Origin: Acidobacteriota bacterium
GTDB taxonomy: Bacteria > Acidobacteriota > Terriglobia > Acidiferrales > UBA7541
NCBI GenBank assembly: GCA_003224145.1
Contig: QHYN01000043.1
Span: 1-33,526, forward strand
Direction of reading: 5' to 3'
Length of the DNA: 33,526 nucleotides
Shown here: piece by piece, positions 5,944 through 9,414 of the stretch
How the letters are laid out: each line of letters opens with the position of its first letter
How positions within the stretch are numbered: position 1 is the first letter of the stretch
Program-made: the position numbers and the translations under genes
The notes under the pieces: model-generated
Database searches by the model: none
What the model saw: only the letters and a program-made list of their open reading frames with translations
Told to the model about the DNA's origin: nothing

Positions 5944-6453
5944 CAAATCCTTTGCAGGTGCAATTTCCGACCGAATTGAACTTGCGATCCCACAGGGCCT
6001 ATCCGTGCGAGCACGGTAGCTTTGGAGAATTGTGCGATTACTTGACTCGACGGACCGGTTCGCAGCGCGCAGGGGCAGATAAAGACTGGTTCGCGCTGTG
6101 GGCAGCTTAACATTCGCGACTTAATTATATGCCCGGTTCGGGGCAACAGAAAAGTCAAGTTCTTGTCGGTATGCACTTTGCCACCGCTGAGGCGCAAAGG
6201 CTCCATCAGCACATCCTCCGGATGCTTTGCGGTCTTATTTTTCCTGGAGCATACCTAACACAACGAGCCTGGGCCGATGCAGCCTTTCGTAGCCATTGGC
6301 GTTTGCCAACCGATTGTGGGCGGGCGGCCCTGGCCTAGACACCGGATAAAGTCAATTACCATTCCGCCGAACCCGCATCCACTCTTCACGAGCTTCTTGT
6401 AGCTTGAGGGCCAAAGAAATGACCGCGTTGAGAAAACGTGTCAGGATAGTGCA
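5944..6453. other. Intergenic stretch, no supported gene
   Basis: About 510 bases between the radical SAM gene start and the small plus-strand hypothetical gene. It should contain promoters for both. Short frames are present on both strands, but none has both a plausible ribosome binding site and protein-like composition. I saw no tRNA, strong hairpin or repeat. Confidence 0.4.
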
Positions 6454-6762
6454 ATGAAACACCCAAAACAACACAAGCGCGCTCCGCAGACCCATCCATC
6501 TGCGTTGGCAGTACCTTCGTATCATCGCATTCTGGTTAAGCATGGCCTGATTGAAAAGACTCTGTCCATCCCCGATGCGTATGAAGTGTTTTTGAAAGTG
6601 GGCGCTGACCCAGAAGTACAGAAACTACGTCGCAAGGTAGTACGCGGCAACCAAATGAAACACGTTCCCGCTTTGTATTTGGCCACAGCGATGGCTCTGC
6701 AAGGGATGACCAAACAGGAGCTTGAAGCTCTGAAATTGCGGATTGAAGAGAAGCGAGTATGA
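6454..6762 (+). CDS. Small hypothetical protein
   Basis: 102 residues, basic, with no signal peptide or membrane segment. The N-terminus is His/Pro/Lys-rich (MKHPKQHKRAPQTHPSALAV); the rest looks helical (TLSIPDAYEVFLKVGADPEV, ALYLATAMALQGMTKQELEALKLRIEEK). I do not recognise a family. The ATG is preceded by AGGA at a suitable distance. It stands alone, converging on the XRE regulator. The helical, charged C-terminus could suit a small DNA-binding or antitoxin-like protein, but there is no toxin-like neighbour and I do not claim that role. Confidence 0.55.
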   Translation: MKHPKQHKRAPQTHPSALAVPSYHRILVKHGLIEKTLSIPDAYEVFLKVGADPEVQKLRRKVVRGNQMKHVPALYLATAMALQGMTKQELEALKLRIEEKRV

Positions 6763-6984: not shown

Positions 6985-7866
6985 TCAGCCCGAATTCTGC
7001 ATCGACGATCGATTTTCCGCACGAAAATGGAGCGGGTCCCTGAGGCTTTGCAATTCCCGGTAATAATAAAGTGAAGTAGGGCGTTTTCCGTTGAACCTCA
7101 GCTTCTTTAGAAACTCTATTTCTTCCGTGGTGGCCGTTCCGCTGAGGGAACTATCATTAAGGAATTCTTTGAACCCCGGCTCTACCTCTGGTTGGGCAGG
7201 TCCCGTTTCAACAAACTCAAATCTCCTAGGATCCCCCGAGGCTATTCTCCGATTTAACACAATTTCCATACCAAAGGTCGTTAGATCGACGTCCCAGGAC
7301 TCAATCAGTGGATCCAGGAAGGAAACACAGTTTTCAGGCGACAAGCTGAAGATATCCGTGTCCAGGAACTCAAGGAGGGTAACCCGCATTTGTTCATAGC
7401 TTCTGGCGGCGAGTCGAGCCACCAAGTGGAGCCAGTTTTCACTGTTCAATTCTTCTTTGGCGACCTTCTTGATCACGTCCAAAAGCTTTTGTGTCACGAG
7501 GCGTTCGAGTTCGCCGAAGGGCTGTTTCTCGAAAATCGCACGTACCTGTATTGCTTTGTCGGGTACGCACTTCCGGACAATCAATTCTCGAATTTCTCCA
7601 AACATGGGCTCGGGCGGGCCCACCAAGTCTCTCTTCAATTCTTCCCTGCGCTGAAGCCCGGCCAGCTGCGAAAGTCTATCGCTCGGAAACTTCAAAAACT
7701 TCGCCATTTTCTCATAGATATCTGTTCGCTCAGGCGCCGGGGGCAATTTCTTGCGAGTCAACAGTTGGGAAATATAGGACTCCGTAACTTCGGCGGCAGT
7801 GGCTAGACCTTTCTGCTCAAGCCCCAATTCTTCCAGTCGCCGTTTAATCACCAGGCAAACGTCCAC
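6985..7866 (-). CDS. XRE-family transcriptional regulator with long C-terminal domain
   Basis: 293 residues. Residues about 4-65 form a helix-turn-helix of the XRE/Cro type (IKRRLEELGLEQKGLATAAE, ESYISQLLTRKKLPP). The rest is a helical domain of unknown function (LVTQKLLDVIKKVAKEELNS, LVARLAARSYEQMRVTLLEF) that may sense a ligand or mediate multimerisation. Start is GTG at 7864-7866 with GGAGGAG four bases upstream, which decides the start. The gene is divergent from the ABM monooxygenase gene, and its own promoter shares a palindrome with the promoter of that gene, so autoregulation and control of the neighbour are likely (inference). The signal is unknown. Confidence 0.85.
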   Translation of the reverse strand: MDVCLVIKRRLEELGLEQKGLATAAEVTESYISQLLTRKKLPPAPERTDIYEKMAKFLKFPSDRLSQLAGLQRREELKRDLVGPPEPMFGEIRELIVRKCVPDKAIQVRAIFEKQPFGELERLVTQKLLDVIKKVAKEELNSENWLHLVARLAARSYEQMRVTLLEFLDTDIFSLSPENCVSFLDPLIESWDVDLTTFGMEIVLNRRIASGDPRRFEFVETGPAQPEVEPGFKEFLNDSSLSGTATTEEIEFLKKLRFNGKRPTSLYYYRELQSLRDPLHFRAENRSSMQNSG

Positions 7867-7910
7867 AGTGCTCCTCCACCTGACTTAACTCTACAACTTA
7901 ACTACTAAAA

Positions 7911-7939
7911 ATAATCTCAGATTCTACTTGACACGTCAA
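7911..7939 (-). promoter_or_regulatory. Promoter of the XRE regulator gene
   Basis: Read on the minus strand: TTGACG (complement of 7934-7939), a 17-base spacer, then GATTAT (complement of 7911-7916). This is a good sigma-70 -35 box with a moderate -10 box, about 45 bases before the GTG start. The -35 box lies inside the palindrome 7926-7941. Confidence 0.65.
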
Positions 7940-7941
7940 GT
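7926..7941. promoter_or_regulatory. Palindromic operator candidate shared by divergent promoters
   Basis: ACTTGACACGTCAAGT: two perfect 7-base arms around a 2-base centre. Each arm contains the -35 hexamer of one of two divergent promoters. A second perfect 10-base palindrome, GTTAATTAAC, follows at 7940-7949. Related half sites (ACTTAAC) occur at 7883-7889 and 7896-7902 in the XRE leader. The adjacent XRE regulator is the obvious candidate binder; this is inference. Confidence 0.6.
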
Positions 7942-7956
7942 TAATTAACCTAATAT
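7928..7956 (+). promoter_or_regulatory. Promoter of the ABM-type monooxygenase gene
   Basis: TTGACA (7928-7933, perfect consensus), a 17-base spacer, and TAATAT (7951-7956). Transcription should start near 7963, leaving a leader of about 85 bases before the ATG at 8048. The -35 box overlaps, in opposite orientation, that of the XRE gene. Confidence 0.7.
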
Positions 7957-8047
7957 GGTTAAACGGACTGAGGGAGTCTTCAGAATGACTGAACCAATAG
8001 TGGTTACCTGAATCGCCCCTTTGGCATCGAGAACCAAGGAGAGTGTC

Positions 8048-8368
8048 ATGTTTACACGCAGAGTTTCCATGCATCTGAAGCCCAATAGCGTTGCGGAATT
8101 CACCCAGAGGATCGAAAAGGACATTCTTCCCCTTCTTCGAAAACAGAAGGGGTTCCAGGATGAAATCACCTTCGTTGCCCCACGGGGAACAGAAGCGTTC
8201 GGAATCAGCTTCTGGGACACACCAGAGAACGCGGAAGCTTACAACCGCGAGACCTATACAGAAGTAACGAAGATCCTGGCGAGAGTGGTTGAGGGAACTC
8301 CACAGGTTGAAACCTATGAGGTTGCCAACTCGACCTTCCACAAGATCGCCGTCGCCGTAGCAGCCTAG
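8048..8368 (+). CDS. ABM-domain (antibiotic biosynthesis monooxygenase-like) protein
   Basis: 106 residues, a small ferredoxin-fold dimeric protein of the ABM superfamily. Visible pattern: MFTRRVSMHLKPNSVAEFTQ, then a helix ending ILPLLRKQKGFQDEITFV and GISFWDTPENAEAYNRETY, typical of the Dabb/ABM fold in which the WD..ENA..Y stretch packs the last helix. Members include heme-degrading and quinol monooxygenases, but many have no known reaction. The ATG at 8048 has AAGGAGAG upstream; a longer in-frame extension to 8021 is outside the fold. It is driven by the strong divergent promoter shared with the XRE regulator and is followed by a hairpin at 8393. Confidence 0.8.
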   Translation: MFTRRVSMHLKPNSVAEFTQRIEKDILPLLRKQKGFQDEITFVAPRGTEAFGISFWDTPENAEAYNRETYTEVTKILARVVEGTPQVETYEVANSTFHKIAVAVAA

Positions 8369-8414: not shown

Positions 8415-8433
8415 GCCCTACCGCGGCGAAGAG

Positions 8434-8548
8434 GGAACTCGAAGAAGAAACGAGGTTGCCAATGGTCAGGAAAATCATCCAGTGGGTCCCCATTGACGGA
8501 ACTCGATGGAGAAACGAGTTTGTTAATGGTCACGAAAATCAGGGAGTG
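8434..8548. repeat. Two-copy tandem repeat with 64-base period
   Basis: A block of about 51 bases starting GGAACTCGA at 8434 recurs from 8498 with the same spacing throughout (landmarks GGAACTC 8434/8498, AAAATCA 8471/8535, AGTG 8481/8545). Some substitutions separate the copies. It lies between the ABM hairpin and the exported hypothetical gene. Function unknown; a duplicated leader or binding region is possible. Confidence 0.6.
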
Positions 8549-8739
8549 AGTGGCCATTCCAACGAAAAACGACATGAGGAAGGCGGCTTGAAGGACGATC
8601 AGTTACAAAGATTGAGTCCAACGGAAATATCTAACCGCCGGCGCCAGGTGCTGCCGCCGAACTGCGCCGGGGAGAAGTGATTACACTGATTAAAGTGGAA
8701 GCGATTTTGAATCTTTGAGGTTTCGTGGGAGAAGTTCTA

Positions 8740-9414
8740 ATGAGAATGATGCGCTGTGTGGGCATTTCCCTCGTTATGATCCTGCTTTCAGCTCCTTTAA
8801 TTCGGGGGCAGGATCTTTCCAAGTATCGGGGCTTTTCGCTCGGAATGAGTTTGCCCGAACTATCAATTCAGGTTGACCTAAGACCGCTCCAGACAAAGCT
8901 GATCCAAAAGCACCCAGCGGTAATTCAAGAGTTGACGTGTTGGCCGGGCGGCTCTTCTGACTATTCGCTCCAAGCAGACTCGGTTTGGCAGATTTTCTTC
9001 AGCTTCTACAATGGCGAGCTCTTCAGGATTTTGGTGACTTATGATCAGGACGCAATACATGGGCTAACTGCCGAGGACATGGTACAAGCCATCTCGACAA
9101 AGTACGGAACTCCAACGAGGCCTGCTGGCGAGATCAGCTTCCCAACGAACGAACTGTATAGGATGACAGAAAAGGTCATCGCCCGCTGGGAAGATTCGCA
9201 GTACTCGATAAACCTTGTCCGTTCTAGATTTCTGAACTCTTTTGCGCTTGTCATGTTTTCGAAACGGCTGGATGGAGAAGCCGAGGCTGCGATTGCCAAA
9301 TCTTCGAAGCTGGAGGGGCAAGAGGACCCGCAGAAAGAAATCAGCCGCCAGAAAAAAGAGACAGACAAGCTGGAAGTGGCGCGACAGAAGAACAGAAAGA
9401 CTTTTCGCCCGTAA
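8740..9414 (+). CDS. Exported hypothetical protein
   Basis: 224 residues from the ATG at 8740, which has GGGAGAA upstream (an in-frame GTG at 8725 is less likely). The start is a typical Sec signal peptide: MRMMRCVGISLVMILLSAPL followed by IRGQ, probable cleavage after the RGQ region. The mature part resembles small periplasmic proteins of unknown role (YRGFSLGMSLPEL, VWQIFFSFYNGELFRILVTY, MVQAISTKYGTP, KVIARWEDSQYSINLVRS) and ends in a highly charged helix (KEISRQKKETDKLEVARQKN), possibly coiled coil. The pattern GMSLxEL...Y..GxLxRIxVxYD...ALxxKYG suggests a protein tracking a substrate or surface structure, but no function is known to me. Confidence 0.7.
   Translation: MRMMRCVGISLVMILLSAPLIRGQDLSKYRGFSLGMSLPELSIQVDLRPLQTKLIQKHPAVIQELTCWPGGSSDYSLQADSVWQIFFSFYNGELFRILVTYDQDAIHGLTAEDMVQAISTKYGTPTRPAGEISFPTNELYRMTEKVIARWEDSQYSINLVRSRFLNSFALVMFSKRLDGEAEAAIAKSSKLEGQEDPQKEISRQKKETDKLEVARQKNRKTFRP

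Follow-up and report, generated by a model that had tools for sequence, protein, structure and literature searches.

The window, as we call the whole stretch of 33,526 nucleotides that was analysed, contains two divergent genes separated by an intergenic gap of 181 bp. The minus-strand gene (positions 6985-7866) starts with GTG and encodes an XRE-family regulator of 293 amino acids, with a lambda-repressor-type helix-turn-helix (HTH) at the N terminus and a C-terminal domain without a named family. The plus-strand gene (8048-8368) encodes a small protein of 106 amino acids, its ATG at 8048 standing behind AAGGAG. 'ABM-like' is only a label for this product, which scores 14.0 bits against the Pfam ABM family (PF03992; cut-off 23.1 bits) with an E-value of 0.057. 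The arrangement agrees with the preliminary description, which had placed a divergent XRE gene next to a pair of promoters and had proposed a switch for the regulator and the ABM protein. The gap holds two back-to-back promoters and three candidate operator boxes, referred to as O_L, O_R, and O_D.

Several further features surround the gene pair. An exported-looking protein without a Pfam family is encoded downstream of the ABM gene (8725-9414, plus strand), and its look-alikes are direct divergent partners of the XRE gene at three other loci (L022, L031, and L068), with no ABM gene between. Behind the ABM gene (8430-8560) are two imperfect copies of the stretch GAACTCGA.GAAGAAACGAG...AATGGTCA..AAAATCA; similar DNA seems to adjoin such modules in other genomes (L006, L205, and L211), and no further copy was found elsewhere in the genome of the window. 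A 102-residue protein of no known family is encoded at 6454-6762 (plus strand). Its one close paralogue in the genome (G000:C155:17066-17371, L241), 96% identical, lies about 0.8 kb from an unlinked box-bearing hsp20 promoter, and a segment may have been copied between these two regulon loci.

The regulator scores below the curated cut-offs of both Pfam families that it resembles, HTH_31 (21.7 against 27) and HTH_3 (20.1 against 23). An AlphaFold model built with 78 homologues (pLDDT 81.8, pTM 0.64), which replaced a poor earlier model from 17 sequences (pLDDT 58), contains the N-terminal five-helix HTH that defines XRE (lambda-repressor-like HTH) regulators. Its residues 1-90 match P22 c2, 434 Cro, SinR, and HigA with Z-scores of 8-11, and a search of the PDB with the whole model gave clear matches for the HTH part only. 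Five residues of the presumed recognition helix (T28, S30, Y31, S33, and Q34) do not vary among the 78 sequences, an invariance that would fit one conserved operator and is not proof of binding. Of 95 genomes in the order, 32 encode relatives of the protein (E up to 1e-3), and several relatives in the same genome are common; in contigs of named genomes, a relative was encoded in 302 of 315 candidate stretches, and 80 were kept. The record titles of these relatives, all of them metagenome-assembled genomes (MAGs) whose bins may be mis-assigned, name several Acidobacteria subdivisions, Gamma- and Betaproteobacteria, Gemmatimonadetes, Rokubacteria, Nitrospirae, Krumholzibacteriia, and Methylomirabilota. 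No description of this regulator or of its boxes was found in a literature search whose reach ended before most subscription journals.

For the comparison of promoters, upstream regions were collected from 137 places, 100 of which were unique over the first 110 nt. Anchoring succeeded for 92; the other eight (L025, L026, L038, L050, L088, L102, L123, and L132) did not reach the required score of 22 of 41 and were left out. Exclusion of 10 more regions that were at least 85% alike gave 82 representatives. The best background scores of loci without an XRE gene are 18-25, so a few rows scoring 22-25 may be mis-anchored.

Direct reading and a consensus scan agree with the preliminary description that TTGACA-17-TAATAT lies on the plus strand and TTGACG-17-GATTAT on the minus strand, the former scoring 10 and the latter 9 of 12 matches. 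The plus promoter, on the ABM side, consists of the -35 box TTGACA (7928-7933) and, after a spacer of 17, the -10 box TAATAT (7951-7956). The -35 box has at least five of six matches in 77 of the 82 representatives; the counts for the plus promoter are partly circular, as are those for the palindrome described below, O_R, and one TG base, since the anchor consensus spans -9 to +34. The minus promoter, on the XRE side, has its -35 box TTGACG at 7934-7939 (at least four of six matches in 59/82, at least five in 34/82) and, with the same spacer of 17, the -10 hexamer GATTAT at 7916-7911. TGA directly precedes this hexamer and makes it an extended -10 (TGA-GATTAT, 7911-7919), an element absent from the preliminary description; TG is found in 52 of the 82 regions and the combination of A2 and T6 in 62. 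Like O_L and O_D, the minus -10 lies outside the anchor consensus.

In the 82 related upstream regions, both -10 boxes follow the sigma-70 conservation pattern: on the plus strand the information content is 1.53 bits at A2 and 1.45 bits at T6, on the minus strand 1.07 and 1.00 bits, respectively, and positions 3 to 5 reach only 0.06 to 0.47 bits. When the roughly 320 possible minus-strand placements were ranked with position weights of E. coli promoters, the aligned minus promoter came first in 42 of the 82 regions and among the top three in 59. Simulation produced a pair of equal quality, with its -35 boxes within 12 bp of each other, once among 200 first-order Markov windows and once among 20,000 sequences of intergenic composition. 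The divergent promoter pair is not a product of chance. The comparison supports two real divergent promoters, one serving the XRE gene and the other the ABM gene, with predicted starts at about 7904 (minus) and 7963 (plus), some 59 bp apart.

Three candidate boxes accompany the promoters. O_L (TTAAC-N8-TTAA, 7885-7901) lies to their left and reads TTAAC-N9-TTAA in most homologues; O_R (TTAACC-N6-GGTTAA, 7945-7962) lies across the plus -10; and O_D (TGAAC-N8-GTTAC, 7990-8007) lies in the transcribed leader. To the left of the minus -10, TTHAC-N9-TTAA was found in 49 of the 82 regions, with the N8 variant in 12 more, and the same N9 pattern lies across the plus -10 in 49/82; at both places, other spacings and shuffles gave 0 to 2 matches, with no more than 1 for the shuffles and for the other spacings at O_R. 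The leader copy, AAC-N8-GTTA, is present in 41/82 (other spacings, at most 4). By the strict N9 pattern, O_L and O_R are found together in 32/82 only. The further palindrome pointed out in the preliminary description, GTTAATTAAC (GTNAATTNAC, 7940-7949), is present, as are two TTAAC half sites nearby (7885-7889 and 7898-7902). O_R shares its left half with the right half of this palindrome, which occurs in 48 of the 82 regions. The XRE proteins of two more diverged loci (L025 and L026), 59-63% identical, have the same recognition helix and different boxes.

The positions of O_L and O_D are bimodal among homologues, with modes about 10 bp, or approximately one helical turn, apart. Counted from TTGACA, the start of O_L falls between -47 and -42 or between -55 and -53, with a single case at -69 and none from -52 to -48. 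For O_D, 25 starts lie at 62-64 and 22 at 72-74, and the interval separating the two groups is empty. On a tree of the XRE proteins (75 rows, several forks weakly supported), these positions require at least 7 changes for O_L and 2 for O_D. Such one-turn steps suggest proteins bound on one face of the DNA. Two hsp20 promoters (L203 and L207) depart from a strict rule: their O_L starts at -36, a shift of about 8 bp towards the promoter that falls short of a full turn.

The long pattern CTTGACANNNMAAGTNAATTMAC, tried as a probe for a wider regulon in the genome of the window, returned only the two XRE loci. The O_R pattern added an hsp20 promoter; its three places in the genome are the two XRE/ABM loci and this unlinked hsp20 promoter, which lacks the palindrome. 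By itself, the O_R pattern shows no enrichment in this genome (forward and reverse matches of 3 each, against 4 and 2 for the control), and the leader motif AGGTTATCTGAA is not specific there (9 matches against 11). A box-like match at 6107-6124, with one mismatch, has no obvious promoter beside it.

We describe the distribution of sites by the combined pattern TTGACA-N11-TTMACY-N6-RGTTAA, which joins the plus -35 to O_R, with up to one mismatch, in 89 genomes of the family. This pattern gave 54 sites, one of which (G082) looks like chance, in 23 genomes; the reversed-pattern control gave none. Sites are present in 23 of the 30 genomes with an XRE gene and in 0 of the 59 without one (p = 1.7e-15), and sites unlinked to an XRE gene in 9/30 and 0/59, respectively (p = 2.3e-5); these counts and all Fisher tests ignore sequence relatedness. 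The 13 sites not beside an XRE gene precede six Hsp20 genes, five ABM genes (one a fragment), and one GroEL gene, with one more at a contig end. Pfam assignments were checked for Hsp20 at L203 and GroEL at L220, and the other Hsp20 labels rest on evident likeness to these.

The genes beside the XRE copies are mostly ABM-like. Because the partner was taken as the longest open reading frame, and some of these are not real genes, only Pfam-checked partners are named: Hsp20, GroES (followed by a GroEL-like frame), an RRM protein, IF-1, and pirin. A transglycosylase-associated protein, below its Pfam cut-off, is a further partner. This mixture, together with the unlinked Hsp20 and GroEL targets, points to stress control.

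Another general factor, such as an activator or a nucleoid protein, might bind boxes that merely co-occur with the XRE gene, given that the case for XRE binding is indirect and the boxes are imperfect and AT-rich. We consider this unlikely in view of the genome counts above (23/30 against 0/59), of the XRE genes adjoining most sites, and of the ABM loci in genomes without an XRE gene, none of which (0/9) has boxes or the palindrome. Among ABM loci that lie away from the XRE gene in XRE-bearing genomes, 12 of 14 have no O box by the pattern. In this grouping of loci, L184 was counted as XRE-adjacent from contig-end sequence, where tblastn gave no match. At a third ABM copy in the genome of the window (L201, G000:C124:813-1127), the Shine-Dalgarno end and remnants of the leader survive, the boxes and the palindrome are both missing, and an apparent cyclic-nucleotide-binding-type gene stands alongside.

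Comparison of linked and unlinked sites separates the promoter elements from the boxes. The search for the unlinked sites demanded both the plus -35 and O_R, and the 38 linked regions compared with them were selected by the same pattern. O_L is kept at 12 of the 13 unlinked sites and at 31 of the 38 linked ones, and O_D is likewise present at 12/13 unlinked targets. The complete minus promoter (-35, A2/T6, and TG) is found at 28/38 linked sites and at only 1/13 unlinked ones (p = 4e-5); taken singly, the minus -35 (at least four of six matches) remains at 6/13 and the -10 hallmark at 5/13. This decay of the minus promoter with retention of the boxes assigns the minus elements to the XRE gene and ties the boxes to the plus promoter under control. 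It also bears on the reading of the minus promoter as a chance by-product, with XRE transcribed from elsewhere and the conservation of that side due to operator DNA only. The modest number of regions in which the minus -35 reaches five matches speaks for such a reading, which is nonetheless highly improbable: the A2/T6 and TG hallmarks are conserved, the aligned placement is the best one in about half of the regions, and the full set is lost where no divergent XRE gene uses it. A box-bearing ABM promoter at one locus (L175, G093:C234) is divergent to a gene of the sigma-70 family (Pfam regions 2, 3, and 4) instead of XRE, and keeps the minus -10 hallmark and four of six positions of the minus -35.

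The same material allows an evaluation of the palindrome between the promoters, ACTTGAC-AC-GTCAAGT (7926-7941), which comprises the two -35 boxes and two flanking bases on each side. According to the preliminary description, the two -35 hexamers lie on opposite strands within one palindrome, where a single symmetric protein would control both promoters. The hexamers do lie on opposite strands inside an inverted repeat, but they abut without overlapping (7928-7933 and 7934-7939), and the repeat, with 7-bp arms around a 2-bp centre (7+2+7), is not a perfect palindrome. The 16-mer is unique in the 4.79-Mb genome; TTGACNNGTCAA alone, with up to one mismatch, is not rare (0.83 expected per window).

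An XRE dimer on this repeat as the single operator for both promoters would account for the perfect 7-bp arms in the window and for the good conservation of the right arm (columns 7-13, 0.8-1.6 bits), and the -35 core TTGAC/GTCAA also matches the box half site TTNAC/GTNAA. Yet conservation of the palindrome, which had been set as a check, is poor: the exact arms CTTGAC..GTCAAG are found in 26 of the 82 regions, against 77 for the plus -35. The arms do not covary either, as complementary mirror pairs are about as frequent as expected from the make-up of the columns; C9 of the right arm is replaced by A in 28/82, while its mirror G2 in the left arm remains G. At the unlinked targets, GTCAAG is present at 4/13 (24/38 at linked sites, p = 0.057), and the right arm is gone from the genome's own hsp20 target promoter; what these targets keep instead is the outer TTAAC box (12/13). 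The palindrome as sole operator was rejected on these grounds, and we regard the single-operator model as quite unlikely. On the best reading, the palindrome is a by-product of two inverted -35 boxes, and the operators are better identified, with partial support from the comparison, as three candidate TTAAC-N8-GTTAA boxes. Control of both promoters by the XRE protein is still very probable; only the route through the palindrome alone is abandoned. A stretch of the plus spacer, GTMAAGTNAA (anchor +7 to +16, window 7935-7944), is conserved beyond the needs of promoter and boxes, and it is missing at two hsp20 targets.

An RNA element in the leader initially appeared likely because CCUUGG faces the Shine-Dalgarno sequence (CCAAGGAG) in close homologues and the leader is strongly conserved over 61 sequences. 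The leader would then be a cis-acting RNA, a riboswitch or thermometer, that masks the Shine-Dalgarno sequence, with the leader box as a stem. This is very unlikely, and the candidate was rejected for want of a conserved covarying structure: RNAalifold gives 0 pairs in the 61 leaders, no relevant Rfam match was obtained, and the leader of the window folds no better than its shuffles (z 0.70). Moreover, AAC-N8-GTT would offer a stem of just three conserved pairs, O_R contains it at identical spacing although O_R is for the most part untranscribed, and the 10-bp jumps fit DNA, not RNA.

The proposed system resembles the lambda-, 434-, and P22-type and other autoregulated XRE repressors in its divergent promoters, its several inverted-repeat operators, one of them over a -10 box, and its HTH fold of the 434 Cro, P22 c2, HigA, and SinR type. 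It differs from them in that the boxes are 45-71 bp apart with one-turn steps, the protein has 293 amino acids with a C-terminal part of no named family, and chaperone genes are targeted in trans. Control of hsp20- and groEL-type genes, as it would operate here, is also known from HrcA/CIRCE, HspR/HAIR, and ClgR. The protein described here is neither HrcA nor HspR. ClgR, also of the XRE type, was among the structure matches (PDB 3f51) and has only the HTH fold in common with it. The HspR operator HAIR has the form CTTGAGT-N7-ACTCAAG, and the HrcA operator CIRCE the form TTAGCACTC-N9-GAGTGCTAA. Neither consensus fits: the palindrome arms of the window read CTTGAC-N2-GTCAAG, which the hsp20 targets L203 and L207 lack, and the boxes are TTAAC-N8-GTTAA without longer arms.

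We consider it probable that the regulator is an autoregulated XRE-family repressor of a small chaperone/ABM regulon, acting through the three phased boxes, with binding and the direction of control as inferences. The parts of this reading that the comparison supports are both promoters, the three boxes, their phasing, the unlinked sites, and the link to XRE at the genome level. Inferred are the XRE protein as the binder, as well as repression, cooperativity, mutual exclusion, and a relieving signal. In the proposed mechanism, two sigma-70-type promoters whose -35 boxes abut would transcribe divergently, the minus promoter into the XRE gene and the plus promoter into the ABM-like gene. An XRE dimer with an HTH of the 434/P22-repressor type would bind the TTAAC-N8-GTTAA boxes, and its presence on O_R, across the plus -10, would block RNA polymerase; occlusion is suggested as the mode of repression by the combination of a near-consensus -35 with O_R over the -10 box. 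Feedback on XRE could come from O_L, which covers roughly +3 to +20 of the predicted minus transcript, and O_D in the plus leader may add cooperativity. As O_L and O_D lie near whole turns from O_R, dimers on the same face could touch, by cooperative binding or in a small loop. The outcome would be a repressed partner gene and a regulator that limits its own synthesis, both relieved by a signal, and the same module would control in trans the unlinked hsp20, groEL, and further ABM genes as a small stress regulon.

The abutting -35 boxes would also admit only one polymerase at a time and so make the two promoters mutually exclusive. The passages by Warman et al. that describe bidirectional promoters refer to a shared -10 and divergent starts 7-25 bp apart on opposite strands (PMC12825309, PMC10268837), and to competition between polymerases at promoters with a common -10 (PMC12825309). 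The present pair is similar to the promoters of those passages in the symmetry of its elements and in that two polymerases would be unable to bind at once (PMC12825309, PMC10268837). In contrast to them, its -10 boxes are separate, its -35 boxes abut, and its predicted starts are about 59 bp apart, which places it outside the definition given there.

More broadly, and more tentatively, it is quite possible that an undescribed regulator family, present in MAGs assigned to Acidobacteriota, Gemmatimonadetes, Rokubacteria, Nitrospirae, Proteobacteria, and others, controls chaperones (Hsp20 and GroES/GroEL) and the ABM-like protein by a portable cassette of three helically phased boxes, which would have spread onto new targets with or without the regulator gene; where the cassette carries the regulator gene, the back-to-back -35 pair would make the two directions exclusive. 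If this is true, many uncultured soil bacteria would have their chaperone genes governed by an unnamed regulator family whose operator is predicted to the base, so that membership of the regulon could be read from the sequence. The one-turn steps of O_L and O_D among homologues would amount to a natural spacing experiment on cooperative repressor binding, and the contrast between linked and unlinked sites would show a divergent promoter being kept or lost according to whether a gene uses it.
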